This document shows, in pieces, positions 3 to 14,102 of a stretch of DNA of 20,746 bases (positions are counted from its first letter, which is position 1; every line of letters starts with the position of its first letter). A program made the translations under genes and the position numbers. Origin of the DNA: a virus; the IMG/VR virus record IMGVR_UViG_3300037117_000006, positions 1 to 20,746 of that record. The stretch is one strand, 5' to 3'. The notes under the pieces are model-generated. The model did no database searches and was not told the origin of the DNA. It worked only from the letters and a program-made list of their open reading frames with translations.

Positions 3-413
3 GAAATGGGGCGTGACGGGGTTCGTGCGTTCATTGCTGGGCTGATTGATACAGATGGAACCGTGAATCGTAGTGGACAGTTTAGCTTCACGACGAAGGA
101 CTACATCTTCGCGGGGCAGGTTGCAGAGCTTGCTCGTGCTTGCGGACTTACTATTTACTGCGAGCCGTGCTTCAATAAAACCTACGAACGGTACTACATA
201 CGAGTACATTTTGCAGTCAATGATGGTGCGTTAATGAAGCCATTTTTGCGCCATGCTGGCAAGCAGAAACGAGTTGGTAGAAAGAACACTCCAAGAGTAC
301 CGAAACCAAATATGGTTACGGCAGTGATAGATGTTGGAGAGATGCCTTGCGTCGATTTGGAAGTTACGAGCAAGGACCATCTTTATGTTACAAATGGCTT
401 GGTGACGCACAAC
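3..413 (+). mobile_element. Intein C-terminal part with LAGLIDADG homing endonuclease, in polA
   Basis: The translated segment before the polymerase motif B holds a LAGLIDADG-type motif (FIAGLIDTDG), which in the DOD endonuclease family supplies a catalytic Asp. It ends with C-terminal splicing blocks: a V-x-D-L-E-V-T-x-x-H-x-x-x-V-x-N segment, then THN directly before Thr. The terminal His-Asn pair and the hydroxyl residue at extein +1 (Thr, codon 414-416) are the expected splicing residues. The insertion point is inside motif B, directly before TINFG and presumably just after the conserved Lys, the most conserved part of the host protein and a typical intein site. The N-terminal splicing domain and the first endonuclease motif lie left of the window, so activity cannot be judged fully. 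Confidence 0.93.
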
Positions 414-1004
414 ACCATTAACTTCGGAATCGTGTACGGCATGGGCGTTACAAAACTTATGGATACCATCAACTTCATTGCGAAGTGTGAAGAGAACATG
501 ATCGACATCAACGTTGCACGGGCGCTCATCGACGCTTACTTTGAGGGCTACCCATTAGTTGATGCGTACAAGATCAAGATGGGCAAGCGTGCAAGAAGAC
601 AAGGCTTCGTGACGACGATCATGGGGCGTAAGCGCAGATTACCAAACGCCTCTTCAAAGGATCGAGCGAAGTCTGCCGGTGCGGAGCGTCAAGCTGGTAA
701 CGCTCCAATCCAAGGATCGGTTGCCGACGCCATCAAGCTCGCGGTCATTCGGCTGGGACGTAAGCTTTGTGCAGAGCATTGGCCCTATCGCCTACTCTTG
801 CAGGTCCACGACGAGCTGATATATGAAGTGCCGAAGGCATGGCTGTCGAAACACAAGTCAACGATTAAGGTGCTCACAGGAATCATGGCTGAGTGTTTGC
901 CGCTATCTGTGCCGGTCATTGTGAAAGCTGACATCTTGAATCGTTGGGGCGACAAGATCGACCTTGACGCTATGGACTTTGATGAGGAAGAAATCACTGC
1001 ATGA
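3..1004 (+). CDS. polA: DNA polymerase I (family A), C-terminal part, carrying the end of an intein
   Basis: The frame is already open at the left edge, so the 5' part lies outside the window. The first 137 or so codons are the C-terminal half of an intein (separate entry). After the splice junction the polymerase resumes with family A motif B (TINFGIVYG, the O-helix that contacts the incoming nucleotide) and later motif C (VHDELIYEV, with the metal-binding D and E). This is the palm domain of a replicative or repair phage polymerase that extends primers with dNTPs. Motif B keeps Phe in the NFG position, as in E. coli Pol I, where T7 polymerase has Tyr. The basic stretch GRKRRLPNA between the motifs also fits the family. 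The stop overlaps the next start (ATGA), so translation is probably coupled. The exonuclease domain cannot be judged because it lies upstream. The identification is secure. Confidence 0.95.
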   Translation, partial: EMGRDGVRAFIAGLIDTDGTVNRSGQFSFTTKDYIFAGQVAELARACGLTIYCEPCFNKTYERYYIRVHFAVNDGALMKPFLRHAGKQKRVGRKNTPRVPKPNMVTAVIDVGEMPCVDLEVTSKDHLYVTNGLVTHNTINFGIVYGMGVTKLMDTINFIAKCEENMIDINVARALIDAYFEGYPLVDAYKIKMGKRARRQGFVTTIMGRKRRLPNASSKDRAKSAGAERQAGNAPIQGSVADAIKLAVIRLGRKLCAEHWPYRLLLQVHDELIYEVPKAWLSKHKSTIKVLTGIMAECLPLSVPVIVKADILNRWGDKIDLDAMDFDEEEITA

Positions 1005-1258
1005 ACAGTCTCGCTGAACTGATCCGCGTACACCCGAAATCTTCGCCGATAAACGTGGCGTGCGAAATCGTCCCAGGGCATTACTCAAAGCAGTATGTTG
1101 TTGTCGAGGTCCGTAAGAACACGATCATCAAAGTCGATGGCGTGCAAAAACCGTTCGAGGTGACGGCGACGGTAACAGTGTGTCACGCATGTTGGGATCG
1201 TTGGTGCTACGACTGCACGAACGTATCTCGCGAACTGCAACGAGCCTTGGAGCACTGA
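1001..1258 (+). CDS. Small protein with CxxC-x4-CxxC cluster, function unknown
   Basis: An 85-residue protein. It starts with the ATG that overlaps the polA stop (ATGA) and ends with a TGATG overlap into the nuclease gene, so it sits inside a tightly coupled replication operon. Residues about 61-72 read CHACWDRWCYDC, a CxxC-x4-CxxC spacing typical of a small metal-binding knuckle, most likely zinc. The N-terminal two thirds look like a small beta-rich segment (alternating V/I runs such as YVVVEV and VTATVTV). I do not recognise the family. A role as an accessory nucleic-acid-binding protein in replication is only a guess from location and the Cys cluster. No signal peptide or membrane segment is visible. 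Confidence 0.7.
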   Translation: MNSLAELIRVHPKSSPINVACEIVPGHYSKQYVVVEVRKNTIIKVDGVQKPFEVTATVTVCHACWDRWCYDCTNVSRELQRALEH

Positions 1259-2166
1259 TGCCTGCTTCTGCCCTTTCCCGCTTCGTTCAATCCATCAAGG
1301 ACGAGGATCGTGCGTCGCACAGCATTGGTGATACGCTCAAGAAGATTCTTGACGACTACACCGGCAGTCGTGAGTTTCAACAATACTGTTCGGACCATGC
1401 GGAAGATGCTGCAAAGTATCTCAAGAAGCAGGAAGGCGAGCGTCAAGGGCGTTGGCGTGCGTCGAGTGCGGGCAAGTGCGTGCAAGCACAGGCATTCGAT
1501 GTTGTTCTCAACGAGTTAGCCGAGAAACTTGACGATCACGATTGGTTTAAGGAAGCCCGCACTACGAACCCGCTCCACGTCCCACTGCTCTACATAGAAG
1601 TTGTGCGACCGGCACGACAAGTGCGTGCACTTGATAACGGAACGTTTGGTCACGTTCGCTGGCATATGGTTTTTGATGCTCTACATGAGAAGGGCATCGT
1701 CACGACGCTATTCGCCGAGGAGCTGCGCTATTACCCATTGTTGCAGCTTTCGGGAACGTGTGACCGTGTAGTTGAGTTCAAGTACGGCGGCAAAATGGTT
1801 CGAGCAGTCATCGACTTCAAGACCATCAAGACGCGCTACTTCACCACACTCATCGGCCCACAACGCGACAACGCGGCCCAGCAACATGCTTACGACCTTA
1901 TGGGGTTCGGGGCTGATGTCTTTATCATGCTATACGAATGCAAGGACGATCAGGAGCTGAAGCTATACGACCGGCCTTATGATCCTGACCTCATCGCGAC
2001 AATGGACCGCGAATACAAGCTTGCGAATCGTTGGGTGGATCAGTTGCTAGAGGGCCGTAAGCCTGACGTGGAGTTGCCGCTAGAAACGTCGTGGTGTTCC
2101 TGGTGCCCGTGGAATAAAACGTGCGCGAAACTGCACCCGGATCGGCCTGATTTGGTGAAGAAGTGA
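1258..2166 (+). CDS. Cas4/RecB-like PD-(D/E)XK exonuclease with probable Fe-S cluster
   Basis: A 302-residue protein starting at the ATG that overlaps the upstream stop (TGATG). An in-frame ATG exists at 1180 but would run far into the previous gene. The nuclease core is visible in order: Glu near residue 155, GTCD at 167-169, IDFK at 185-188 (the D-x-K of the PD-(D/E)XK motif) and a QQHAYD helix near 208-213 (RecB motif). Four cysteines are placed as in Cas4 and AddB: one upstream of the core (GKC, 74) and three near the C-terminus (280, 283, 289, in CSWCPWNKTC), which typically hold a 4Fe-4S cluster. Known relatives are 5'-3' or bidirectional ssDNA exonucleases making ends for recombination. 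In a phage recombination operon next to RuvC- and RecA-like genes it is best read as a recombination or repair nuclease, not a CRISPR gene. Confidence 0.88.
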   Translation: MPASALSRFVQSIKDEDRASHSIGDTLKKILDDYTGSREFQQYCSDHAEDAAKYLKKQEGERQGRWRASSAGKCVQAQAFDVVLNELAEKLDDHDWFKEARTTNPLHVPLLYIEVVRPARQVRALDNGTFGHVRWHMVFDALHEKGIVTTLFAEELRYYPLLQLSGTCDRVVEFKYGGKMVRAVIDFKTIKTRYFTTLIGPQRDNAAQQHAYDLMGFGADVFIMLYECKDDQELKLYDRPYDPDLIATMDREYKLANRWVDQLLEGRKPDVELPLETSWCSWCPWNKTCAKLHPDRPDLVKK

Positions 2167-2714
2167 TCGTCGGCGTTGATCCGGGCCTAACATCGTTCGG
2201 TGTAAGCAATGGTGAGGACCATGATGCATTTAAGACTTTACCGAACCCGGCTCTTACTGAAGAAGAGAGCCTTCTTTTTCGTGTGTTCAGGCTTTGCGGT
2301 GACTTAGAGAACTATCTTGGCGTTGAGGATGCAGAACTGTTCATCGAAGCACCACAGCTTCGAGTGCCGGAGCACGGCGGTTCGCATCTGTATCAAATAG
2401 GATGGCTGATGCACGGGCTATATGACTTTGCAGCTCGGCGAACAGGTGAAGGGCGCGTAACGACGATTGCACTCGTACAGCGTGGCACCTATTTGAAAGC
2501 ATTATTCGGCAAAGGTGTTATCGCTGAGACACTGTTAGCCAAAGAAGTCTACAAGAAGTTTGGAGTGGAGATAGACCATGACCGTGGACTCGACAAAATC
2601 GAAGCTTGGCTCCTCTGGAAGTACGGATGCGGAATCCAAGACGGATCAATCGAACCAAAGCAACGGGGCAGCGTCCAAAGGGGCCGTAAATCGGTACGAT
2701 CTGCTAAACACTAA
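2163..2714 (+). CDS. RuvC-like Holliday junction resolvase (RNase H fold)
   Basis: A 183-residue protein with a GTG start overlapping the previous stop (GTGA). The N-terminus VGVDPGLTSFG is the first beta strand and catalytic Asp (residue 6) of RuvC-type nucleases. LFIEAP supplies the second acidic residue (about 62), and DHDRGLDKIEAWLL near 138-151 supplies the C-terminal acidic cluster. This family cuts Holliday junctions or branched DNA with two metal ions. In phages such enzymes resolve recombination intermediates and debranch DNA before packaging. The length suits the family. The last 40 or so codons overlap the next gene in another frame, and the C-terminal tail there (SVQRGRKSVRSAKH) is basic, possibly a DNA-binding extension. 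An Hjc-like nuclease lies 1.8 kb downstream, so the phage may carry two junction-cutting enzymes. Confidence 0.85.
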   Translation: MIVGVDPGLTSFGVSNGEDHDAFKTLPNPALTEEESLLFRVFRLCGDLENYLGVEDAELFIEAPQLRVPEHGGSHLYQIGWLMHGLYDFAARRTGEGRVTTIALVQRGTYLKALFGKGVIAETLLAKEVYKKFGVEIDHDRGLDKIEAWLLWKYGCGIQDGSIEPKQRGSVQRGRKSVRSAKH

Positions 2715-3225
2715 TCAGAAGGCTATCGAAAACGCCTATGCACAGATTCGCAAGACTGCGAAGACGGCAGAGAGCATTGTCGATAAAATCGTTCGCGAGT
2801 ACGGCGAACAGCTCGACGTGTATGTCAGTAATGTCGAAGCTCGTTTGGATGACATTCGTGACGGGCGCATTAAGCAGTTCTCCGACAACGACCTTCAGCA
2901 AATCGTGCTTCGGTTGCCGATTCTCATGTACCGGCTCGGTGACATGCTCGACCTTTCAGCAATCGAGTCTGACATCAGCAAAGCAGCGTTGCAGAACCTG
3001 AATGCACAGAACTACTTGGATGCGCCAGGCCGAACGGTTCCTGAAAAGAAGGCGCATGCCGAGTTGCAGACGCAAGCTGAAGCGTCGGTCGTGGACCTCT
3101 CACGGCACGTCTATCAACGGTTGAAGAATAAGATTGAGAACGCATCGGCGCTGTTCGATGCAGTACGCAAAATCATTACCATGCGTGATACCGAACGCAC
3201 CGTCTTTGGAAGGTCAACGAAGTGA
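2578..3225 (+). CDS. Helical protein of unknown function between RuvC-like and RecA-like genes
   Basis: A 215-residue protein. The ATG at 2578 is preceded by GGAGTGGAG, a good ribosome binding site, and there is no obvious later start. The first 40 or so residues are rich in Ser, Lys, Asn and Gln and look disordered. This is the part that overlaps the end of the RuvC-like gene. The rest is almost all amphipathic helix with many charged heptad-like runs (for example ENAYAQIRKTAKTAESIVDKI). There is no Cys cluster, Walker motif or signal peptide. The gene ends four bases into the RecA-like gene (GTGA overlap). Position beside a phage RecA and overall helicity make a recombination mediator (a UvsY-like role, loading recombinase on ssDNA) a reasonable hypothesis, but no family motif proves it. 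Confidence 0.75.
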   Translation: MTVDSTKSKLGSSGSTDAESKTDQSNQSNGAASKGAVNRYDLLNTNQKAIENAYAQIRKTAKTAESIVDKIVREYGEQLDVYVSNVEARLDDIRDGRIKQFSDNDLQQIVLRLPILMYRLGDMLDLSAIESDISKAALQNLNAQNYLDAPGRTVPEKKAHAELQTQAEASVVDLSRHVYQRLKNKIENASALFDAVRKIITMRDTERTVFGRSTK

Positions 3226-4529
3226 GCAAGACTCCGCCGATCTGTGGAATCTGCCGCGAGGTCCTGGGTGCCCCACCTGCTGCTGGCATGCCGCCCTATC
3301 ACCCGTCGTGTTTGCGCGAGCATCCTGAGTTCTTGGAGCCGCCTGAGAACGTCGGCGTGAAGCTTGATGCCGTCGCGAATGCCGGAGCGGTGGGATCGAC
3401 GGAATGGGTCGAGGAGTTCAACAGGCAGTTCGGTGCCATGCTCAAGCCGTCCGATGAGGTGCCGCCTATCACCTATCGCAGCAGCGGTTCTATCGCCCTG
3501 GACGTGGCGTTGGGCGGCGGCTGGCCCAGAGGTCGGGTGATCGACGTGATAGGGCGTGAGGGCTCAGGCAAGACGCTCCTGTTCGAGCTGGCAGCCGTGG
3601 CGGCCCAGAAGATGGAGGGCAAGCGATCCGTGCTCTTCGACTTCGAGGGTACTTTCGACCCTAAGCGATTCGTCAGCCTGGGCGGTGATCCGAAGATGCT
3701 TGACGTTGTTCGCGCTGAGAATGTCATGGATCAGAAAGCTCCGCTCCTGTTCGGTGAAACTGCTTACGACATGGCTCGGATCATCTTTATGCATAGCAAC
3801 ACGCACGCATGCCTGTGCTTTGACTCAACGGGCGCGATGGTGTCGAAATCGGACTACGAGAAACGTGAAGAAAGCATTGAGAAGACAGGGTACGGTGTCG
3901 AAACCGCTCGTCTCATCTCCGATGGCTTAAAGTTGCTTATCGGAACGGGGATGCTCGCTCGCAGCGGTATGACGCACTTTTACATCTCACAGAGTCGCGA
4001 CAACCTCACTCAGCGCGCAATACGAGGGATTCCGCCGCCTGATAAGCCGACCGGAGGCCGAGCGTTACGGTTCTACGCTTCAATGCGTGTTGAAGTATCG
4101 AAGGGCGATACCTTGAAAGCTACACTTGAGGACGATACTACGGGTGTTGTGGACACAAATGTCGAAGTAGGGCATGTTACAAAGATTCGCGTTCGCAAGA
4201 ACAAGTGTAACAGTTATCAAGGTCGCGTTGCAGAGTTTAACCTTTTTACCGGGGGCGAACTGCAAGGGTTGGATCGTGTCAGCGAGTTGGCTACACTTGC
4301 GATCTATTCCGGTGTTGCAAAACGCGGCGGCTCATGGTACGAAGTTCCCAACATATTCAGAGTGAAGGGGAAGGAAGTCTTCCCGAAGGCTATTGAAGAT
4401 AACTTTGCTGAAGTCGAAAAGCTTGTGCGTACTCGACTTGCAGAGATTATGGACGGCAGTTCGCAGCCCGAAACTGAAGAGGAGCAGGATGTACTCGAAG
4501 ATGGTTCAGGAGAACCTCAAGCGGAGTAA
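3222..4529 (+). CDS. recA: RecA-like recombinase with N-terminal zinc-finger-like motif
   Basis: A 435-residue protein with a GTG start overlapping the upstream stop. The RecA core is clear: the SSGSIALDVALGGG entry segment, Walker A GREGSGKT (111-118), FDFEGTFD holding the catalytic Glu (142), Walker B ACLCFDST (Asp 201), the TGGRALRFYASMRVEV segment (277-292) that follows loop L2 in RecA, and a C-terminal ELATLAIYSGVAKRGGSWYEV block matching the RecA pattern. It should form ATP-dependent filaments on ssDNA and drive strand exchange in phage recombination and repair. Ahead of the core is a CxxC...HxxC arrangement (C8, C11, H27, C30), which resembles a small zinc knuckle and is not part of classical RecA. 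The C-terminus is acidic, as in bacterial RecA. The gene overlaps the downstream nuclease start by 41 bases. The family call is secure; recA or uvsX naming is a matter of convention. Confidence 0.93.
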   Translation: MSKTPPICGICREVLGAPPAAGMPPYHPSCLREHPEFLEPPENVGVKLDAVANAGAVGSTEWVEEFNRQFGAMLKPSDEVPPITYRSSGSIALDVALGGGWPRGRVIDVIGREGSGKTLLFELAAVAAQKMEGKRSVLFDFEGTFDPKRFVSLGGDPKMLDVVRAENVMDQKAPLLFGETAYDMARIIFMHSNTHACLCFDSTGAMVSKSDYEKREESIEKTGYGVETARLISDGLKLLIGTGMLARSGMTHFYISQSRDNLTQRAIRGIPPPDKPTGGRALRFYASMRVEVSKGDTLKATLEDDTTGVVDTNVEVGHVTKIRVRKNKCNSYQGRVAEFNLFTGGELQGLDRVSELATLAIYSGVAKRGGSWYEVPNIFRVKGKEVFPKAIEDNFAEVEKLVRTRLAEIMDGSSQPETEEEQDVLEDGSGEPQAE

Positions 4530-4896
4530 AGAGCACGAGGAACACGTCGCTTCTATTCTGCGCCCTATCTATGCAAGCGATGCCGTAGCACGTTCCGACA
4601 AAGGCGTTCGCGTACAGCCCGGCAGCGGCAACCAAGCTCTTAACCCAAACGATGTCAAAGTCATCGAGCGTTGCTACGTCGAGTGCAAGGAAACTTCAGC
4701 CGGTTCCATTTCAATCAAGCATGCATGGTTGACGCTCGTAAAGAAGCGTGCAGCTATGGGCGGCTTGCGTTCAATCCTTGCACTGCGGTTCTCGCATCCG
4801 TTTCATGCCTTCTGTAAGGACTACTACGTCATTGATGAGGCAACGCTCGTCCATCTCTTGAAATGCGAGCTAGAGGTGGAGCGGAAGGAGCAGTAG
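4489..4896 (+). CDS. Hjc-like PD-(D/E)XK nuclease, putative Holliday junction resolvase
   Basis: A 135-residue protein. I chose the ATG at 4489 because GAGGAGCAGG lies directly upstream; an in-frame ATG at 4501 is possible and one at 4393 lacks support. The start lies inside the recA end. Motifs fit the Hjc and phage resolvase branch of PD-(D/E)XK nucleases: an N-terminal EEHV helix with a conserved-type Glu, PGSGNQ (44-49), NDVK with the catalytic Asp (55), and VECKET with E65-x-K67, followed by a helix and the LRSILALRF strand. Such enzymes bind and cut four-way junctions symmetrically as dimers. A general DNA endonuclease is the alternative. With the RuvC-like gene it closes the recombination module. 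No metal-binding Cys cluster or export signal is visible. Confidence 0.8.
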   Translation: MYSKMVQENLKRSKEHEEHVASILRPIYASDAVARSDKGVRVQPGSGNQALNPNDVKVIERCYVECKETSAGSISIKHAWLTLVKKRAAMGGLRSILALRFSHPFHAFCKDYYVIDEATLVHLLKCELEVERKEQ

Positions 4897-4921
4897 CCGG
4901 GCTCTAAGAAGGTGCCGGTCC

Positions 4922-5521
4922 ATGTTGACCGATCCGGCATGGGATGGTTGGAACAAATACTCAATCGACAGCATTGACGATCTGCGTTCACTGCTGCGTT
5001 CGGTACGGGCACTCGAATCGCTGGCCCAGGAAGGTGATTCAGTATCCGCAACAATCCTGCTCGATATACGGAAGGCAATGCGCTACGAAGCATTTGAGAG
5101 CGTGCGCGTCCTAACGGAAGAGCAGTTCAGAGTGATCCAGCTCTATCTCATCGAAGGTCGGACTACCCGAGATGTTGAGAACGTCATTAAGAAAGACCGC
5201 CGTATGATTTTCTACTACATCAAATCCGGTCTACGCCGTATGCTGTGCTATCTCCACAATGAAGAGTTCGGATCGTGGTATTGGCAGCCGTGGCAAGTAG
5301 ACTTCGTTGCGCGCAATCAACATCTTCCACGAGAAGAGCTGGCTGCGCGAGTAGGAAAGAACGAGAATGCGGTTCGACATGTCCTTCAGCGGTTGCAGGG
5401 CACCACAATCAATCGAGGCGCAAGCAGACGCGATCTTGGAAGCGGATCGGAAGCAGCGACGCGATTGGCGGCAGGATCAGTACCCATGTCTTACGCGCGG
5501 ACAGCTAGAGCGACGGGGTGA
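4922..5521 (+). CDS. Regulator with two helix-turn-helix segments (sigma region 4-like)
   Basis: Up to 199 residues from ATG 4922, preceded by AAGAAGGTG. Residues 64-111 (LTEEQFRVIQLYLIEGRTT...) resemble the sigma70 region 4 or LuxR-type HTH: an L-T-x-x-Q-x-x-V-I entry, a short turn, then a recognition helix (DRRMIFYYIKSGLRRML). A second HTH-like segment lies at 123-158 (WQVDFVARNQHLPREELAARVGKNENAVRHVLQRL). It lies between the recombination and packaging genes, so control of late transcription is plausible. A small terminase-like DNA binder is the alternative. After residue 160 the sequence becomes Arg/Ala/Gly/Ser-rich and looks like a poorly selected frame, while the +1 frame looks more protein-like there (see the next entry). 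The true C-terminus is therefore uncertain. Confidence 0.7.
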   Translation: MLTDPAWDGWNKYSIDSIDDLRSLLRSVRALESLAQEGDSVSATILLDIRKAMRYEAFESVRVLTEEQFRVIQLYLIEGRTTRDVENVIKKDRRMIFYYIKSGLRRMLCYLHNEEFGSWYWQPWQVDFVARNQHLPREELAARVGKNENAVRHVLQRLQGTTINRGASRRDLGSGSEAATRLAAGSVPMSYARTARATG

Positions 5522-5615
5522 AAGAGAAGTCGGCTGTGACCCAGCAGCGATTGACGGACAGTTGCCTTCTGAAATCAGAACTAACTTCCGAAAAACCCGA
5601 TACCTTCCCGCTTGA
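5379..5615 (+). CDS. Possible overlapping small gene, or frameshifted C-terminus of the upstream regulator
   Basis: A 78-codon frame starting at ATG 5379 (another ATG at 5367) overlaps the last 143 bases of the regulator gene in the +1 frame. The product is charged and plausibly helical at first (QSIEAQADAILEADRKQRRD), then has CLTRGQLERRGEREVGCD. Its composition is more like a real protein than the overlapping end of the regulator frame. No convincing ribosome binding site precedes either ATG (AGGAAAG is about 8-10 bases before 5367). Two readings are possible: a separate small gene translated within the regulator, or a +1 frameshift, natural or a sequence error, joining the HTH part to this C-terminus. 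I cannot decide from one sequence. Function unknown. Confidence 0.45.
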   Translation: MSFSGCRAPQSIEAQADAILEADRKQRRDWRQDQYPCLTRGQLERRGEREVGCDPAAIDGQLPSEIRTNFRKTRYLPA

Positions 5616-5619
5616 TTAC

Positions 5620-5644
5620 TGTAAAGGAGGGCTTAAACCTTACA
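5620..5644 (+). promoter_or_regulatory. Hairpin holding a strong Shine-Dalgarno sequence without a close start codon
   Basis: TGTAAAGG (5620-5627) can pair with CCTTACA (5638-5644), leaving one A bulged. The stem and loop contain AAAGGAGGG, a near-perfect ribosome binding site. No ATG, GTG or TTG lies at the usual 5-10 bases downstream. The first ATG (5648) opens a 9-codon frame (MIQHEMQTG) ending at 5677, four bases before the putative small-terminase start at 5682. It could therefore be a short leader that couples ribosomes to the terminase gene. The hairpin is seen in the sequence; the regulatory role is inferred. Confidence 0.4.
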
Positions 5645-5681
5645 GCGATGATCCAACACGAGATGCAAACGGGTTGAAGCG

Positions 5682-6296
5682 ATGACCGATCCTAATAGAC
5701 TGCTCACTGCTTCTAAGATGATGAACGATGTTCAGCAGCGGCTATTTACGCTCTATGTTGGTATTGGGTCAAGTCGTACCATTTCAAAGCTTCACGAGCT
5801 TTGCCATGTTCGAGGATTTAACGTTACAAAACGCATGCTGGATCGTTGGAGTGCGAAGTGGCATTGGTCCGAGCTTGCAAAACTGACACAACAAGAAATC
5901 GCAAATAACGTTGCAAGAGAAGTACAGCCTCAGCTTCGGGAACTCATTGACCTTGATCTAAAAGCGTGTATAAAAATGAAGGAGCGATTTCATAAGCGGC
6001 TTGAGATTGATCCGTTCTCCGAGGACTTCGATGCGCTGCCGGAGGCGAAGAAAGAGCTTGCGATCATACCTGATCTTGCCGACTACGAGCGCGTTGTTCG
6101 ACTTGAGAAGCTGTTGCTCGGCGATCCTGAAGAACTAGAGCGCAAGGGCGAAGTCTCGCGGCTCGGTAAAGTGCTGGGTGACAACGACGGGAATGTCATT
6201 GCGACATTGCGTGAGCGGACGATTCAGGTTTACGGGCTGCCCGATAAAGACGTTATCAAAAAGGTGCATGAGCAGCTCGAAGGTGGTAAGGAGTGA
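5682..6296 (+). CDS. Putative terminase small subunit (TerS)
   Basis: A 204-residue protein directly upstream of the large terminase, whose GTG start overlaps its stop (GTGA). Residues about 30-62 form an HTH-like segment (SSRTISKLHELC, then VTKRMLDRWSAKWHWSE). The RW-x-x-KW-x-W pattern is common in phage small terminase and DUF1804-like proteins, which bind the packaging site on the genome and recruit the large subunit. The rest is helical and charged, fitting an oligomerisation region. No strong ribosome binding site lies just before ATG 5682 (only a weak GGGTTGAAG). A strong one sits about 50 bases upstream in a hairpin. The call rests on position and the HTH, not on a diagnostic motif. 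Confidence 0.7.
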   Translation: MTDPNRLLTASKMMNDVQQRLFTLYVGIGSSRTISKLHELCHVRGFNVTKRMLDRWSAKWHWSELAKLTQQEIANNVAREVQPQLRELIDLDLKACIKMKERFHKRLEIDPFSEDFDALPEAKKELAIIPDLADYERVVRLEKLLLGDPEELERKGEVSRLGKVLGDNDGNVIATLRERTIQVYGLPDKDVIKKVHEQLEGGKE

Positions 6297-8974
6297 CTGC
6301 CTTCTTACAAGCTGTTGCGGACAACACGACCTTTGGCTATGCCACGGAGTACATGATAGTCGATGGCCGTCCGTTTTCATTCGATGGGCACAGCTATCTC
6401 ATCGACTTGTATCAAGACAACCACCCCTACCAAGTCATCGAAAAGGCGGCCCAGATGGGTGCCTCGGTACTTGGTATGGCAAAGGCGTTCTTCGTCTGCG
6501 ACAAGCTCGGAAAGAACGTCATTTACTTCTTCCCGACTGATGAAGACGTGCGCGAGTTCTCCAAAGGCCGTGTTGCGCCGATCATTCGCGATTCGCCGCA
6601 CCTCGAAGCTGTTGTTGGTGACGCCGATGCGGTTGGACTGAGAAACGTTGGCCGAGGCTTCCTGTACTTCCGAGGCATGCGCTCGAACATTCGTATGAAA
6701 TGTTTTTGCGAAGATACGGAAGTGCTTACTCGCTCCGGCTGGAAGCATTTTGATTCAGTAACGAGAGAGGACTACATTGCTACGCGCTCACCGAGCGGCA
6801 TATTTATGTGGCAGCGCCCTACCGACGTTTGGCAGTACGACTACAACGGCGAAATGTTGCATTTCAAAGCTGCCGGAACTGATGTGCTTGTTACACCGAA
6901 TCATCGCATGCTGTTTCAATCTTGCCCAGGGAAGCAGGAATGGTTCGAGACAGCAGAGCAGCGCAGGAACGCGAAGGCTAGTCAAACGCACCAGCAGTTT
7001 GTCCGTAGTGATGTTACTTGGCGCGGCGAGGTTCCAAAGTTTCTTGTCAAGGACGGTCGGGATGCACATGGCGATAAGTGGTTCATAACGATTCCAGGTA
7101 ACAAGCGCAACAATGCGTGGGAATCGGCGGGAAGATTGCCTTCAAGGCGTATAAATCTTGCCGATTGGGTTGCCTTTCTAGGGCTGTACTTAGCAGAAGG
7201 TTCGACTCAAGGAGTCATGGGCGGCAAGCGTGGCGGTCGAGTTAGCATTTCTCAAGTTGAGAAATCTAAGCATTTCCAGCGGATACAAAAGCTGCTGCCA
7301 AAGATTGCCGCCACATGGAGCTACGATAACGGGAGCACATTTCGCATTGGTGATATGGAACTTGCGAAGGTGTTGTTTCCATTAGGCAACAAGTACAACA
7401 AGTTCGTGCCAGAGTGGGTGAAGAATCTGCCGCCCAGGTATTTGAAGATTTTGTGGGAGTGGGCTGTGGTCGGCGACGGCTCTGTTCAGCGTAGTCAAGT
7501 GCGGTACGGGACCATGAGCAAGAAGTTGGCCGACGATATGCAGGAAGTGTTAATGAAGCTCGGTGTTCTTGCGTATGTGAAACCGCAGAAGCAAAGTACA
7601 GTCCCGACGATTCGCGGGCGTCAAGTGAAGAGTACGGTGCCCTGCTACGTTGTTCTTGCACGAACTACCGGCAAAACAACCGTTGCACCAAGGCCGCAGG
7701 CTGTAAAGTATCGCGGCACAGTTGGATGCGTGTCAGTACCGAACGGCGTTATTTTGACGCGGCGTAACGGGCTTACTATGTGGAGCGGCAACTCGATTGC
7801 GGCTGACCTCCTCATCTTTGACGAGCTTGATGAAGTAACGAACAATCAGTTGGAGCTTGCAGATCAGCGCCTCAACCACTCATCGTTGAAGTGGCGTTAC
7901 CTCCTTTCGACGCCGACGTTCGACAACTACGGCATCGACCGCGAGTTTCGCAAGAGCGACCAACGGTATTGGAACCTCATCTGCAAGAACTGCCTGACGC
8001 CGAACATTACTGAGAAGCTGTTTCCTGATTGCGTAAAACGCATTAGCGAAGTGAAGTGCATTCTTGTTTGCCGCAAGTGCGACGCGGAGCTGGACGCACA
8101 GTACGGTCTTTGGATAGCAGAAAAACAGACTGAGCGCATTCGTGGGTATCATCTCTGCTCGCTCTACGGCATCTATACCGACCTTTCGGAGTTGATGTAT
8201 AAGTTCGAGGAAGGCCGGCACCGTGAAGAGTTCATGCGCTCGAAGTTGGGCATGCCGTGGGTCTCGACAGATCAGCGGTTGACGCCGGAGCTAGTGGAGC
8301 GGTGTTGCGAGCGGTACGAGTGTGGACCGATGGGCATGACGCACACCTACATGGGCGTTGACCAACGCGGGCGCGAGCTGCATGTCGTCATTCGCGGCAA
8401 TGATGATCGTACACGCCGTCCGAAAGACGTGCTTATCAAGCGTGTTCGCAAGTTCGAGGACCTCGACGTGCTTATGTCCGAGTTCGATGTAGACTTGGCG
8501 GTCGTTGACGGTACGCCGAATCAGCATTCAGCGCGGGACTTCTGCATGCGCTTTCCAGGCCGTGCCTACATGGCCTACTATAACGAGAATCAGCGTGGAT
8601 CGTACAAGTGGCAAGAGTCCAAGACTGATGACGAGGACTATCAGGTTACGGTCAACCGCACCGAATCGCTCGACGCCATGTATGAGGAAGTGCAGCGCCG
8701 CGAGATTATGCTCCCTAACCCCGACAACGCGGAGATTCACTCGTTTGTCGAACAGGTATGCAATCTTGCGCGCATCAACGAAGTCGATGACGACGGCGGC
8801 GTGAAGCATGCCGTTTACAAACGACTTGGCGAGGACCACTACGCGCACGCTTCAAACTACGCACTGATCGCACACTCGCGATTCGGTGGGCCGGTTCAAA
8901 GCATCATGGTACAATCGCCGATCATCTCAACAAATGTCGTAAGCCGCCGCTTCGAGGAAGGGTCTCGATACTAA
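6293..8974 (+). CDS. terL: Terminase large subunit (TerL), interrupted by an intein
   Basis: An 893-residue precursor with a GTG start. Removing the intein (residues 137-500) leaves 529 residues, a normal TerL length. The ATPase part has EKAAQMGASVL (about 50-60), which aligns with the deviant Walker A of lambda gpA (Lys at the front of the motif, no GK[ST]). Walker B LLIFDELDE (D510, E511) follows the intein, then the coupling motif LLSTPTFD. A zinc-ribbon-like set of four cysteines (C564, C567, C593, C596) separates the ATPase and nuclease parts, as in GpA-type terminases. The RNase H-like nuclease has GVDQ (D690), VVDGTP (D739) and GEDHYAHASNYAL (D848). The enzyme pumps phage DNA into the prohead through the portal and cuts it at start and end. 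The portal gene follows one base later. The call is secure. Confidence 0.95.
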   Translation: MTAFLQAVADNTTFGYATEYMIVDGRPFSFDGHSYLIDLYQDNHPYQVIEKAAQMGASVLGMAKAFFVCDKLGKNVIYFFPTDEDVREFSKGRVAPIIRDSPHLEAVVGDADAVGLRNVGRGFLYFRGMRSNIRMKCFCEDTEVLTRSGWKHFDSVTREDYIATRSPSGIFMWQRPTDVWQYDYNGEMLHFKAAGTDVLVTPNHRMLFQSCPGKQEWFETAEQRRNAKASQTHQQFVRSDVTWRGEVPKFLVKDGRDAHGDKWFITIPGNKRNNAWESAGRLPSRRINLADWVAFLGLYLAEGSTQGVMGGKRGGRVSISQVEKSKHFQRIQKLLPKIAATWSYDNGSTFRIGDMELAKVLFPLGNKYNKFVPEWVKNLPPRYLKILWEWAVVGDGSVQRSQVRYGTMSKKLADDMQEVLMKLGVLAYVKPQKQSTVPTIRGRQVKSTVPCYVVLARTTGKTTVAPRPQAVKYRGTVGCVSVPNGVILTRRNGLTMWSGNSIAADLLIFDELDEVTNNQLELADQRLNHSSLKWRYLLSTPTFDNYGIDREFRKSDQRYWNLICKNCLTPNITEKLFPDCVKRISEVKCILVCRKCDAELDAQYGLWIAEKQTERIRGYHLCSLYGIYTDLSELMYKFEEGRHREEFMRSKLGMPWVSTDQRLTPELVERCCERYECGPMGMTHTYMGVDQRGRELHVVIRGNDDRTRRPKDVLIKRVRKFEDLDVLMSEFDVDLAVVDGTPNQHSARDFCMRFPGRAYMAYYNENQRGSYKWQESKTDDEDYQVTVNRTESLDAMYEEVQRREIMLPNPDNAEIHSFVEQVCNLARINEVDDDGGVKHAVYKRLGEDHYAHASNYALIAHSRFGGPVQSIMVQSPIISTNVVSRRFEEGSRY
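6701..7792 (+). mobile_element. Intein with LAGLIDADG homing endonuclease, in terL
   Basis: A 364-residue in-frame insertion. It begins with Cys1 in CFCEDTEVLTRSGWK, the classic intein block A. Block B is VLVTPNHRM. The two endonuclease motifs are FLGLYLAEGS (about residues 294-303 of the precursor) and WAVVGDGS (about 390-397). It ends with VPNGVILTRRNGLTMWSGN and then Ser as extein +1. The penultimate residue is Gly where His is usual; some known inteins tolerate this. Joining the flanks gives MRSNIRMK-SIAADLLIFDELDE, a continuous approach to Walker B, which supports the borders. The endonuclease would cut intein-free terL alleles, allowing the element to spread between phages. Confidence 0.93.
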
Positions 8975-8975
8975 A

Positions 8976-11900
8976 ATGATATTCTCATCGGATGGCAAGA
9001 GTGCGCTGAAGTCGGTTGACGGTGAAGAGCGCGTTCAAGTCATCAGTCCCCAAGAAGCACAGCGGATTGATTGGGCAAAAACTACGCAAGTCATCGACGG
9101 CGCAAGCTATGAGCCGGACAAAGAGTTCGAGGACGCCGCAGTAGCTCGACCAATGAATCCAATGGACTTCACAGCAGAGACTTTTAACGGTAAGCCGTTC
9201 GAGGTCGAGGCTGAACTGTTCGAGGTTTCGCGCGACGGTACGGAGTATCGGTTGCAGCGTTACCCGAATAAGGCTGCGCTTGCTTCGCGCCTCAAGGAAG
9301 CCGAAACGCAGTGGCACACTTGGACACCTCCTGAGCGTCATTTACGGGAAGCCGTGCGGCCCAGAGAGCGTGCGATTGATACCGCAGTTGATGAGGCGGC
9401 ACGAGAGCAGTTACGAGAAGCGTTTGATGGTGGTGGGGGCTATCCTCCGGCCAATGACAGTCAAGCCTGGGCATCGAGTCGCTATGGTGATGGCTTCGAC
9501 GCACAAGCGGAGTACGTTCCGCTCATGGCGGGGCCGTGGTCGAAGCAGCTTTATCAGCGGCAGTTTTTGGAGATGCACTGCCTGACCGGCGATACGAAGA
9601 TTTTGATGCTTGACGGCACCTCAGTTCGTATTGATGACCTTGCAAAACGTGGTGGTGAGTTCTGGGTGTATTCATGCGATGGCACGCAGGTTGTGCCTGG
9701 ACGTGGCTATGACGCGCGCAAAACGGGTGATCTTCCGGTCTACGCCATTGCTTTGGATAATGGTGAAGTTGTCAAGGCAACGGGGAATCACGGTTTCATG
9801 TTACGCGATGGTTCATATAGACGAGTAGATGAGCTGAAACCGGGGGATAGATTGATGCCCCTGTACCGAAAATATAAGGGGCGTCGAACTAACCCTAAAA
9901 CGAAGCAGACTTACGAAAGTGTTTATCATCCTGGCATGGATTTGTGGGAGTTTACGCATCATCTTGTGGCTCGTAGGCATGTTGAAAACTTTTTTGAGTA
10001 TCGCGACGGCTACCACATTGACCATATCAATCAAGATGCTCACGATAACCGACCTGAAAATCTGCAACTGCTGACTTCTGGCGATCACATGCGGAAGACT
10101 GTTGCATGGAATCTTCAGCATTCGCCTGAATCGTTTACGGGAGCAAAAGGCAAGCCTGTCTCTGAAGCGCGCCGTAGAAAGATTAGCGAATCTAACCGTA
10201 GACGGCATGCAGCGTACACAGAAGAAGAGCGTACCTCCCTAAGTCAGAAACATTCCGAAGCTCAAAGACGCCGTTATGACAATGGCTATGCCATGTCAAA
10301 AGAGCATGTTGAATCTATTAGGCAGGCGAACTTAGGGCGCAAGCGTGACATAGTGAGTCGTACTCTTTCTAGCGAGAACGCTAAGAGTGTTTGGGACAGG
10401 TATACCCCTGAAGAGCGGCAAGCGCGTGTGAATAAAGTGAAAGCCGGTTGGACGCCGGAGAAGCGCGCAGCCCAGGCTATTCTTAATCATCGTGTGGTAT
10501 CGGTAACGAAACTTGGTGTCGAGCCGGTGTACGACATCTCTGTTCACGGATACAGCAACTTTGCTCTTGAAGCCGGAGTGTTCGTTCACAACTCGAAAGC
10601 GTTTGAGGCGTACAACCACAATCCGGTTGCACGTCGAGTCGTCAACATTACGCGCGACTTCATTTTCGGGCATGGGCTCGATCACGTTTCAACCAGCTCT
10701 GATGTTGATGAAGTGTGGACGGAGTTTGTAGAACGCACTGACTTCTACAACCTGCTCGCCGATACCATCTACACTGACCTCTCGTGGGCCGGTGAGATGA
10801 TGTTTGAATGGTATGATAACGATCCATTCAAAGGTGCCACAGATTTCCGAATGATCGACCCGTCAACGGTCTGGGAAATCGTGACGGACCCCGAAGACAT
10901 TTTCAACGTCTACTACTACTATCAGTCATACGAGACTGCCATGCAGCAGTACGTCACAGGCAACATTCCTTCTACGAAGTACATCATCCGGCAAATCCCT
11001 GCGAACCGCGTAACGCATATCAAGATCAACTCGTCCATGTACGAGAAGCGTGGGCGCAGTGATCTGTTCCCGAATCTCGGCTGGGTGAAGCGGTTGAAGG
11101 ATTTGATGAATGCTCGCGTCATCAAGGGCCAGCTCGAAGCGGCGTTCGTTTGGGACGTAGAAGTGCTTTCGGGTGACGCGAACGTTGCGGCGGTTGGGTT
11201 GAAACTGCCTGATCCATACAAGGCTGGCTCGACGTTCGTTCACAACAAGAACATTAAGTTGACGCCGGTATCGTCATCGCTCAAGGGTAACGAGCAAGAG
11301 CCTGATGTCGAGAATCTCATTACACTCATCGCGCTCGGTGGCAACATCCCCAAGGAGTTCTTGGGGCAGACTTCGCGCGGCGGTCGTGGCGGACAGCTCT
11401 TGTCGAGCGAGCCGGGTACAAAGTGGTTCGAGCGCCGTCAAGTGCTCATCGACCGGATCGTTCATACCGTAGCAAACCGCGTGATCGGCAACGCCATTAA
11501 GGCGAATATTCTGTCGCTGGACGACATCTTGAAGGATGCTCGTTCAGTGCGCCGTCTTGCGCCAAGTGCTTCAAACCAACCAAAGCGCGGGGACATTGAG
11601 AACAAGATCGAGGACACGCGCGAGGAGCAGCAAGATCAACGCGACGAAGCGCAGCAGACTCAGGCTGATGCACAACAGCAGAACGCTCAACAACAGCAGG
11701 ACGCCAAAGATCAGGCCGACAAGTCGAAGAACGGCAAGACTGAAGTTCACGTTTCAGTCAACGGAAAGGCTAAGGTGAAGGAAGCGATCCGTGGTGTTGT
11801 ACGCGAGTCTGAGGCCGACGATAGCAACGGCGGCCCGTTGACGAAGCAGCAGAAGGCGCGCATCGAGACCATCAAGAAGACGCAGAACTACTCCAAGGAG

Positions 11901-12578
11901 TTCTTGCAGTTCATGTTACCGGCTATCGCACAAGAGGATCGCTCCTCGAAGCTCAAAGACGTTGCACTTGCCGAGTCGATGGAATGGATTTCAAAGCGAA
12001 CGTCGGCAAACATGGGCGCTCACGAGCTGAACATTACGACCTACGACTTCGATGAAGAGCGCGTGCAGATCAACGCCGAGTCCGACGAAGGCATGTCGAT
12101 TGCCCATGTGTATTCGCAGGACGGTAAAAAAACTCCCGAGACCGTGCTTGCACAGGATGTTCAAGAGCGTGAGCAGGCAGAGCAGCCTCCTGCCGAAAGC
12201 TTTACGAACGTGCCTGTGCCTCCGACTACTGAAGGAATGAAAGTTGTTCCAACACAGGGTCAGAATCCAAGCGACCAACCCAACAGCGGCACGAAGAAGG
12301 TGAACCAGCACGCAGCTCTTGATACCAACGATACGAATCCAACCAGCACGAATAAAATGAGTCCAGAAAATCGAAACCCAATGACGGATAAAGGAAAGGC
12401 CGGAATACTCGCTCACGAACGTAGGACTAAAGCGTCGTTGCGCCGAGCCGTCAAAAGTGAAATCCTTAGAGAAGCCCTCGGGCCTCTTATGAAGGAAGAC
12501 AGTGCTCTTGCGAAGTTGATCTTGGAACGTAAAGCTGATGCTGTCAACTCGGAAGAGCTAGATGAAGCCCTGTCCTAA
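8976..12578 (+). CDS. Phage portal protein, interrupted by an intein, with long C-terminal extension
   Basis: A 1200-residue precursor, 862 residues after removal of the intein (residues 202-539). It starts one base after terL ends; GAGGAAGGG lies about 12 bases upstream. The portal identity rests on position after TerL and on the block after the intein: YNHNPVARRVVNITRDFIFGHG, then DLSWAGEMMFEWY, PSTVWEIVTDPED and NIPKEFLGQTSRGG, the order seen in SPP1-like and related portals. The portal forms the dodecameric DNA channel at one head vertex. After the core comes a coiled, Gln/Asp/Glu-rich stretch (nt 11620-11720) and about 250 further residues with low-complexity linkers (PPAESFTNVPVPPTT), longer than most portals. 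These could be a fused scaffold-like or accessory region. The first 200 residues are also poorly conserved in look. The overall call is strong; the tail function is unknown. Confidence 0.88.
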   Translation: MIFSSDGKSALKSVDGEERVQVISPQEAQRIDWAKTTQVIDGASYEPDKEFEDAAVARPMNPMDFTAETFNGKPFEVEAELFEVSRDGTEYRLQRYPNKAALASRLKEAETQWHTWTPPERHLREAVRPRERAIDTAVDEAAREQLREAFDGGGGYPPANDSQAWASSRYGDGFDAQAEYVPLMAGPWSKQLYQRQFLEMHCLTGDTKILMLDGTSVRIDDLAKRGGEFWVYSCDGTQVVPGRGYDARKTGDLPVYAIALDNGEVVKATGNHGFMLRDGSYRRVDELKPGDRLMPLYRKYKGRRTNPKTKQTYESVYHPGMDLWEFTHHLVARRHVENFFEYRDGYHIDHINQDAHDNRPENLQLLTSGDHMRKTVAWNLQHSPESFTGAKGKPVSEARRRKISESNRRRHAAYTEEERTSLSQKHSEAQRRRYDNGYAMSKEHVESIRQANLGRKRDIVSRTLSSENAKSVWDRYTPEERQARVNKVKAGWTPEKRAAQAILNHRVVSVTKLGVEPVYDISVHGYSNFALEAGVFVHNSKAFEAYNHNPVARRVVNITRDFIFGHGLDHVSTSSDVDEVWTEFVERTDFYNLLADTIYTDLSWAGEMMFEWYDNDPFKGATDFRMIDPSTVWEIVTDPEDIFNVYYYYQSYETAMQQYVTGNIPSTKYIIRQIPANRVTHIKINSSMYEKRGRSDLFPNLGWVKRLKDLMNARVIKGQLEAAFVWDVEVLSGDANVAAVGLKLPDPYKAGSTFVHNKNIKLTPVSSSLKGNEQEPDVENLITLIALGGNIPKEFLGQTSRGGRGGQLLSSEPGTKWFERRQVLIDRIVHTVANRVIGNAIKANILSLDDILKDARSVRRLAPSASNQPKRGDIENKIEDTREEQQDQRDEAQQTQADAQQQNAQQQQDAKDQADKSKNGKTEVHVSVNGKAKVKEAIRGVVRESEADDSNGGPLTKQQKARIETIKKTQNYSKEFLQFMLPAIAQEDRSSKLKDVALAESMEWISKRTSANMGAHELNITTYDFDEERVQINAESDEGMSIAHVYSQDGKKTPETVLAQDVQEREQAEQPPAESFTNVPVPPTTEGMKVVPTQGQNPSDQPNSGTKKVNQHAALDTNDTNPTSTNKMSPENRNPMTDKGKAGILAHERRTKASLRRAVKSEILREALGPLMKEDSALAKLILERKADAVNSEELDEALS
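9579..10592 (+). mobile_element. Intein with HNH homing endonuclease and NUMOD-like repeats, in the portal gene
   Basis: A 338-residue in-frame insertion starting at Cys (CLTGDTKILMLDG, block A), with block B VVKATGNHGFM, and ending in YDISVHGYSNFALEAGVFVHN followed by Ser at extein +1. All splicing residues look intact. In place of LAGLIDADG motifs the middle holds an HNH motif (YHIDHINQ, then DNRPENLQLL and a GDH; precursor residues 346-371). Several short basic repeats follow (SEARRRKISESNRRR, SKEHVESIRQANLGRKR), which resemble NUMOD3 DNA-binding modules of intron endonucleases. The joined exteins read LYQRQFLEMH-SKAFEAYNHN. This makes a different endonuclease lineage from the other two inteins in the window. 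Confidence 0.93.
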
Positions 12579-12633
12579 GTGTGGGCAACAGGACGCTGAT
12601 GACGAACTAGCTCGTCAGCGCATTGCTTGTTGA
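12562..12633 (+). CDS. 23-residue peptide with CPxCG motif
   Basis: A very short frame between the portal and MuF genes. ATG 12562 lies in the portal end (17-base overlap), with GGAAGAG six bases upstream, and the stop at 12631-12633 overlaps the TTG start of the next gene. The peptide begins MKPCPKCGQQ and ends in IAC, so it has half a zinc ribbon (C-P-x-C-G) plus a third Cys. It also neatly fills what would otherwise be a 50-base gap in a genome with almost none. It may be a real microprotein, or mainly a device that carries ribosomes from the portal gene to the non-ATG start of the next gene. Evidence is spacing, ribosome binding site and the Cys motif only. Confidence 0.5.
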   Translation: MKPCPKCGQQDADDELARQRIAC

Positions 12634-14102
12634 TTAAAGTTGTTGACCGCCAACTCTTTGAAGCCAAAGCCAAGCGCCGAAAGGTGCGGGCTGCGATAGG
12701 CTCAATCCTTCGTAATGCTCGCAAGCCGCTGTTCAACCGAGTCGAGATTGAGATTCAGCGATATCAAGCAGCACTCGTCAACCTCCTGAATCAATCACAG
12801 CGCGATCTTGAACAATCGGTAGGGGCGTCAGGACATCTTGCGATTACACTTAACGATCTCGTTGAAGAGTTCCAGAAACTCGGAATGGTGTATCTGCAAA
12901 ACGGTGCGGACATCGGGTACGAGCGCGCTCTCACAGACTTGAAGGATCGCGGCTGGATTGCAAGTTATCAGGAGCCGGTCCACGCGCCGAAGGAAGCCGT
13001 CGAGGCTGTCTTGACTGCGAACTACAAGTACCTGCGTTTGAGCTTGCTACCTGACTTACAGAAGAAACTGCAATGGGCGACGCCAAGCAACGTCGGCCCA
13101 GCGATTGCAGCAATGCGTGCTCGCGTGCAGATGTACGGTCACTATGTCTGGGTCGCGAGTCAGGAAAGTTATCGCGCATGCATCAAGGACTTTTTCACGC
13201 ACACGACGCTGCATGAGAGTGCTGTACCACGCAAGATCAAGATTCGCGAAGGTGGGCCCGGCTCCGGGTTTCACGGGCATGCCGGTCGTCCTGGTATTCG
13301 CGGCGGATCGGCAGCGGGAGGCGGTAAGGCGCAAGCGATTTTCTTAATGGGTGGCAGTGCAAGTGGGAAAGGACGCCTTGCCCAACGGTACGCGAAAGAA
13401 TACGGCATTAAGAATGTCATCAACTGCGACCATATCAAGGAAGCCTTCCCACTCTTCACCGGCAAGCCGATCAACGGTAAGTACGGAACGTCGGGTCCAA
13501 AGACGTATCAGGAGCTGATTGAGAACTACACTCCTGAAGAAGTTGCAAACGTCAACGAATACATCCGCGATCATACCCCCTTCTCCGACGTGCATGAGTT
13601 TGCACAGCGGCAGTTCGGCGATCCCGACAAGTTCTATGAAGACAACAATCCGGCAAGTGGTGGGCTGACGCATGAAGTATCGTCGTACATCGCAAAGCAA
13701 CAGCTTGCGGGCGCACTTGATTCGGGCAAGTCATTCGTTTATGATTCGACCGGCAACGGTTCGTACTATCCGATATGGGCAGGCAAAGCTGCCGACGCCG
13801 GGATGGCTGTCACTATCGCTCAGGCATACGTTCCTCGCGAAGTTGCACACATGAACGACGATGCTCGTGGAGCGAATGCTGATCCGGGCGATCTGACGGG
13901 TCGGACGGTGGGCTCGGCGGTCCTAATGAGCACCCATGATAAGGTAGACGCGATGGCTCCGGTTATGGCTGCCTGGGCTACAGGGGCGCGTGCAGCGGGC
14001 CAGGACGTGACCTTCACGCGCGATGATACCTACACCCCGGAGATGCTCGCCAGAGCCCGAGAACTTGGCTATACCTACTCTTCGCGACCTACCGGAAACT
14101 AA
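12630..14102 (+). CDS. MuF-like head protein fused to a zeta-toxin-like kinase domain
   Basis: A 490-residue protein from TTG 12630, overlapping the preceding stop (TTGA); TTG 12627 is an alternative. Residues 1-200 are helical and charged and lie directly after the portal, the usual place of the MuF/SPP1 gp7 minor head protein. Residues 208-227 form a Gly-rich linker (GPGSG...GRPG...GGS). From 235 on there is a P-loop kinase: IFLMGGSASGKGRLA (Walker A 241-248), NCDHIKEAFP (Asp as in zeta toxin), a THEVSS helix start, DSGKSFVYDSTGN, and a late GRTVGS. Zeta toxins phosphorylate UDP-N-acetylglucosamine and block wall synthesis; relatives phosphorylate other substrates. No epsilon-type antitoxin is visible. 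MuF proteins enter the capsid, so the kinase could be packaged and delivered with the DNA. The kinase family is clear; the MuF part rests more on position, and toxicity is unproven. Confidence 0.78.
   Translation: MIKVVDRQLFEAKAKRRKVRAAIGSILRNARKPLFNRVEIEIQRYQAALVNLLNQSQRDLEQSVGASGHLAITLNDLVEEFQKLGMVYLQNGADIGYERALTDLKDRGWIASYQEPVHAPKEAVEAVLTANYKYLRLSLLPDLQKKLQWATPSNVGPAIAAMRARVQMYGHYVWVASQESYRACIKDFFTHTTLHESAVPRKIKIREGGPGSGFHGHAGRPGIRGGSAAGGGKAQAIFLMGGSASGKGRLAQRYAKEYGIKNVINCDHIKEAFPLFTGKPINGKYGTSGPKTYQELIENYTPEEVANVNEYIRDHTPFSDVHEFAQRQFGDPDKFYEDNNPASGGLTHEVSSYIAKQQLAGALDSGKSFVYDSTGNGSYYPIWAGKAADAGMAVTIAQAYVPREVAHMNDDARGANADPGDLTGRTVGSAVLMSTHDKVDAMAPVMAAWATGARAAGQDVTFTRDDTYTPEMLARARELGYTYSSRPTGN

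Follow-up and report, generated by a model that had tools for sequence, protein, structure and literature searches.

Does a stretch of phage DNA in which polA, terL and the portal gene all appear interrupted carry three genuine inteins, and how could such a set have come together? The window analysed here is a whole IMG/VR record of 20,746 bases. From left to right it contains the end of polA, genes for a PD-(D/E)XK-like nuclease (with a match slightly below the Pfam cut-off) and a RecA-like protein, the terminase small subunit gene, terL and the portal gene; after the portal gene there is a gene for a protein with a zeta-toxin-like domain, followed by smaller genes. The original prediction had placed an intein in each of polA, terL and the portal gene, and domain and motif matches together with empty sites in relatives bore this out, with the outer coordinates exact (Table 1). 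From these comparisons, the window very probably holds three independent mobile inteins of one uncultured phage.

Table 1. Inteins and exteins of polA, terL and the portal gene in the window (a slash in a motif marks the splice junction)
Feature	Position	Strand	Evidence
polA intein, C-terminal 137 aa, LAGLIDADG type	3..413	+	PF14528, TIGR01443, junction VTHN/T
polA C-extein, O-helix (TINFGIVYG) to stop codon	414..1004	+	DNA_pol_A 4.6e-43
terL N-extein	6293..6700	+	GpA_ATPase; 75-77% identical to best empty relatives
terL intein, 364 aa, two LAGLIDADG-like motifs	6701..7792	+	empty sites in relatives; same-site intein in L016
terL C-extein	7793..8974	+	phrog_675 terminase 1.3e-101; 60% identical to L002
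portal N-extein	8976..9578	+	homologous to relatives L002-L029
portal intein, 338 aa, HNH endonuclease type	9579..10592	+	PF14890, HNH_3, empty sites
portal C-extein	10593..12578	+	phrog_10963 portal protein 2.6e-15; 48% identical to L003

The three inserts and their neighbourhood

The portal insert is the most readily recognized by profile models, with 69.1 bits for PF14890 (cut-off 35.8) and 32.9 for HNH_3 (PF13392, cut-off 24.8), and it presents Cys1, a TGNH motif and the C-terminal FVHN/S (HN, with Ser at +1). The polA insert lies within the O-helix and is seen in part, as the N-extein and the N-terminal part of the intein, including Cys1 and the first LAGLIDADG motif, are located beyond the 5' end of the contig. 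What is present scores 21.7 with the C-terminal intein model TIGR01443 (cut-off 15.6) and 31.9 with LAGLIDADG_3 (PF14528, cut-off 22.5); without the stop codon, the coding part of its C-extein is 414-1001.

The terL insert, located six residues upstream of the Walker B-like LIFDE, carries Cys1, TPNH in block B and the C-terminal WSGN/S (C-terminal Asn, Ser at +1), and scores 35.0 with LAGLIDADG_3 (cut-off 22.5). Its match to the N-terminal intein model TIGR01445 (19.1) is below the cut-off of 24.5, and the general splicing model PF14890 gave no match on this insert. It should be noted that a splicing-model score is a detection aid and does not define an intein. Since the general splicing models perform poorly on this insert, the case for terL rests on comparison, and the best support comes from relatives in which exactly this site is empty, together with the homology to other phage inteins. 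By phmmer, TerL residues 133-212 match the AceL NrdHF-1-1 intein 6zgq (1.5e-6). AlphaFold models made from two-sequence alignments were too poor to be of use, with a pLDDT of 40.5 for the terL intein and 37.6 for the portal intein.

The expected division into two LAGLIDADG inteins and one HNH intein, with at least two endonuclease lineages, agrees with these matches (PF14528 in terL and polA, HNH_3 in the portal gene). Likewise, two of the inteins are present in full, with almost every splicing residue retained, as had been proposed; the sole exception is the penultimate residue of the TerL intein, which is Gly and not the usual, non-obligatory His. The same GN/S ending was observed in all six inteins compared: that of the window, the one at the same site in L016, and those of the TerL of Gordonia phage GMA6 (L011), a phage DNA methylase (L010), the prohead protease of LR756508.1 (L007) and a Lak-A1 gene (L009). 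Because Gly is found in six of six, the absence of the penultimate His is a family trait and not a sign of decay. Mycobacteriophages also carry inteins without the penultimate His, and the Bethlehem RDF phage intein, with a penultimate Gly, was shown to splice, while its Gly-to-His mutant was slowed (available part of Kelley et al. 2016, PMC5050341).

We also considered whether a single intein had been amplified and copied three times. This was rejected, as blastp gave no mutual match among the three window inteins at E 1e-3 and each of them falls with different relatives. An assembly artefact was rejected too, given that independent contigs have the same sites filled.

Another aspect of this neighbourhood is a linker motif, REGGxGSGxxGHxGRPGxxGGS, which is present in proteins 3' of the portal gene in many clade members (window 13251 and 17083; L004:10151-12310; L014, L015, L017, L019, L021, L022 and L024). 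A single open frame in L004, at least 1189 aa long, contains five copies of the linker, which divide repeated domains from one another in the manner of cargo units on a string. In the window, the post-linker C-terminal part of the product of 12627-14102, directly 3' of the portal gene, matches Zeta_toxin (PF06414, 35.5 bits, cut-off 22.3).

Occupied and empty sites among relatives

The joined extein frame that the original prediction expected of intein-free relatives was found in both genes in which the insert is complete. The terL site is empty, with the frame joined and conserved exteins on both sides, in 19 of the 20 syntenic loci, all of which have the terL-portal neighbourhood; two distant TerL matches not showing the insertion site (L005 and L006) were excluded from the counts. 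Among 19 bacterial-genome loci, TerL likewise runs without interruption in 18, the upstream frame of the remaining one (L074) being unreadable. For the portal gene, the site is empty under the same conditions in 25 of the 26 loci readable at that position, three second copies of contigs having been left out. The exceptions are L016, with the same TerL residue filled by an intein 46% identical over the alignment, and L027, with the same portal residue filled by an intein 57% identical. The O-helix site of polA is empty in all six relatives showing it, with Lys as the preceding residue in each, and it is filled in LR745208.1, a 485 kb huge-phage record (L008), by an intein 41% identical over the part present. 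A second polA site (QG/S), empty in the window, is filled in the clade member L019 (L019:1603-3246); the polA of LR745208.1 has a second intein at this site too (QG/T).

Searches of viral contigs with single queries gave no matches for the terL intein or for the polA C-extein. With alignments as queries, the terL intein led back to the L016 contig and, in addition, to two distant inteins located in different genes, and the portal intein retrieved the L027 contig as its sole match. A match of Lak-A1 to TerL residues 8-502 was rejected as a TerL, being intein homology in another gene. Outside the window, whole-record scans found no clade record with two inteins, which is not proof of absence because most of the records are fragments. 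The splicing-domain scan of 27 records gave one match each in those of L027, L019 and L035 (the last one weak), and the LAGLIDADG scan of 14 records gave matches in those of L019 and L016; the PF14890 tallies are lower bounds, since neither the TerL intein of the window nor that of L016 was detected by this model.

A tree of 22 TerL extein rows places L016 with the empty L017 and L019, and L027 with the empty L021 and L022; both branches are starred, and the window lies outside them. Because the occupied L016 and L027 nest with empty sisters, occupancy has repeatedly switched, whether through gain or through loss, and so patchy a distribution shows that inteins were exchanged or lost in the past.

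How the inteins would have arrived follows from established intein biology. Each gene would be translated as a precursor, from which, judging by the residues, a class 1 Cys/Asn self-excision would join the exteins. The endonuclease (LAGLIDADG in polA and terL, HNH in the portal gene) would cleave the corresponding allele that lacks the intein in a co-infecting relative, and repair would then copy the intein and adjacent bases into the cut allele. The insertion sites are conserved positions of functional importance, at which losing the intein imprecisely would be lethal. The trio probably results from separate gains, or from the retention of old inteins, within one lineage, and requires no joint function.

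The original prediction went further and read the cluster as a sign of frequent co-infection and homing, which our results do not support: the closest inteins found for the two complete ones share just 46% and 57% identity with them, and no conversion-tract signal at the DNA level survived correction. The codon-level test around the sites comprised 48 comparisons, counting two pairs in both directions, with nothing significant after correction; the smallest p value was 0.031 before correction (window against L020, portal gene). Recent transfer is not indicated either, since the intein identities are of the same order as those of the exteins (about 60% for the TerL C-extein with L016 and 48% for the portal C-extein with L027), and none of the relatives retrieved had a near-identical intein in a divergent host gene.

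This similarity of identities is what vertical descent would also allow. The inteins could have been ancestral to the clade and inherited vertically, while the other members lost them by recombining with intein-free alleles, in which case the window would be a relic and not a homing hot spot. This alternative concerns the history only, as the splicing mechanism would be the same, and the fact that no recent near-identical transfer was seen speaks in its favor. We consider it possible but somewhat doubtful: it needs many independent losses, with L016 and L027 each lying within a starred group that is otherwise empty, and the flanks IAA (TerL) and S (portal) are common to the occupied rows across groups, unlike those of their own sisters.

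The flanking residues deserve a closer description. At portal +1, both occupied rows have Ser; of the 25 empty loci, 17 have Ala, seven have Arg and one, L020, has Ser. At TerL +3, both occupied rows have Ala, found in one of 19 empty loci (L030); Pro is present in the other 18 and in 19 of 19 bacterial-genome loci. The lineage-merged one-sided Fisher tests gave p values of 0.038 (portal +1) and 0.033 (TerL +3), which are modest, and independence among the rows is incomplete. In these alignments, the flank residues track occupancy, which fits what co-conversion would give. A nucleophile at +1 is required for splicing, so the portal pattern matches what co-conversion on invasion would leave. 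In haloarchaeal mcm, a Pro to Ser change at +1 is needed by co-conversion on intein invasion (available part of PMC10643990).

The intein-free portal gene of L020 (L020:4290-4340) has the same +1 Ser codon as the window, and directly downstream of the site 32 of 33 bases are identical, in a gene side that is overall about 63% identical. This near-identical stretch of 11 codons is a possible scar of a lost intein. That the portal +1 Ser and the TerL +3 Ala were indeed imposed by co-conversion, and that L020 would be a former host after precise loss, seems to us rather unlikely; if the scar reading were true, past inteins would become mappable in intein-free phages.

How unusual the trio is

Leaving out the window, the terL site is occupied in one of 13 lineages, the portal site in one of 12 and any polA site in one of six. 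With rates from the other lineages, any one lineage would hold such a trio by chance with a probability of about 0.001, and about 0.04 trios would be expected over 14 lineages, window included; these figures are only descriptive, because the trio was the reason for choosing the window. The rarity that had been claimed for such clustering stands within the phage's own clade and fails beyond it, where equal or denser sets exist. The unannotated 484 kb phage record LR756508.1 (L007, 140000-165000) presents five inteins in about 13.6 kb: three interrupt a T4-like portal gene, a fourth lies in a gene upstream and the fifth in the prohead protease. The L013 record presents three within about 8 kb. 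In the available part of PMC5050341, cluster C1 mycobacteriophages have 117 inteins (our sum over its Table 1) and at most 55 cluster C genomes bear inteins, so by our own arithmetic some cluster C genomes must hold at least three. Up to three inteins per genome are found in crAss-like phages (available part of PMC7886860). The trio is unusual among the relatives of this phage and not among phages generally; as a three-intein case it is tidy, real and striking, though ordinary in kind.

That the three genes all belong to the replication and packaging block could suggest that the inteins delay or gate the maturation of these proteins, and conditional splicing has been published for other inteins. 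Nevertheless, close relatives manage without each intein, the intein sets vary by lineage and the three inteins share no sequence relationship, which makes such a functional clustering very improbable. Least credible of all is that the inserts are dead, non-splicing Hint-like remnants that break their genes: the weak N-terminal splicing-model score of TerL and its missing penultimate His would agree with it, but the frames are open through insert and extein, Cys1, TxxH, Asn and the +1 Ser are intact, the penultimate Gly is shared by all the TerL-like inteins compared, and the Bethlehem RDF intein splices with it (PMC5050341), so broken genes were rejected.

Comparison with known systems

With three mobile inteins as the preferred reading, the value of this group of phages lies in having occupied and empty alleles of terL, the portal gene and polA within one syntenic clade, in which intein gain, loss and co-conversion become readable. 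The catalogue of phage inteins gains an intein in a GpA-type terminase and an HNH intein in a portal protein.

The mycobacteriophages offer one parallel. As in the window, the available part of PMC5050341 describes inteins in TerL ATPase domains, with one site in Walker B, as well as portal inteins (six, in cluster C1) and class 1 inteins with a penultimate Gly. Their TerL inteins are located in terminase_1, terminase_6 and one terminase-like protein, whereas the TerL of the window is GpA-type, and its site is just upstream of the Walker B-like motif. The TerL intein of Gordonia phage GMA6 (KR063280.1) is 26% identical, with a penultimate Gly and Ser at +1, and is placed just before FIGFDE; however, the relationship is only distant, and the exteins gave no match to the TerL exteins of the window. 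The polA of LR745208.1 shares the O-helix site and, unlike the window, has the extra intein at QG/T. Finally, the haloarchaeal MCM inteins (available part of PMC10643990) are similar in that neighbouring inteins occur and an unsuitable +1 residue must become Ser, although that system is archaeal, both inteins are in one gene and the empty +1 residue is Pro, in contrast to the Ala or Arg of the portal gene studied here.
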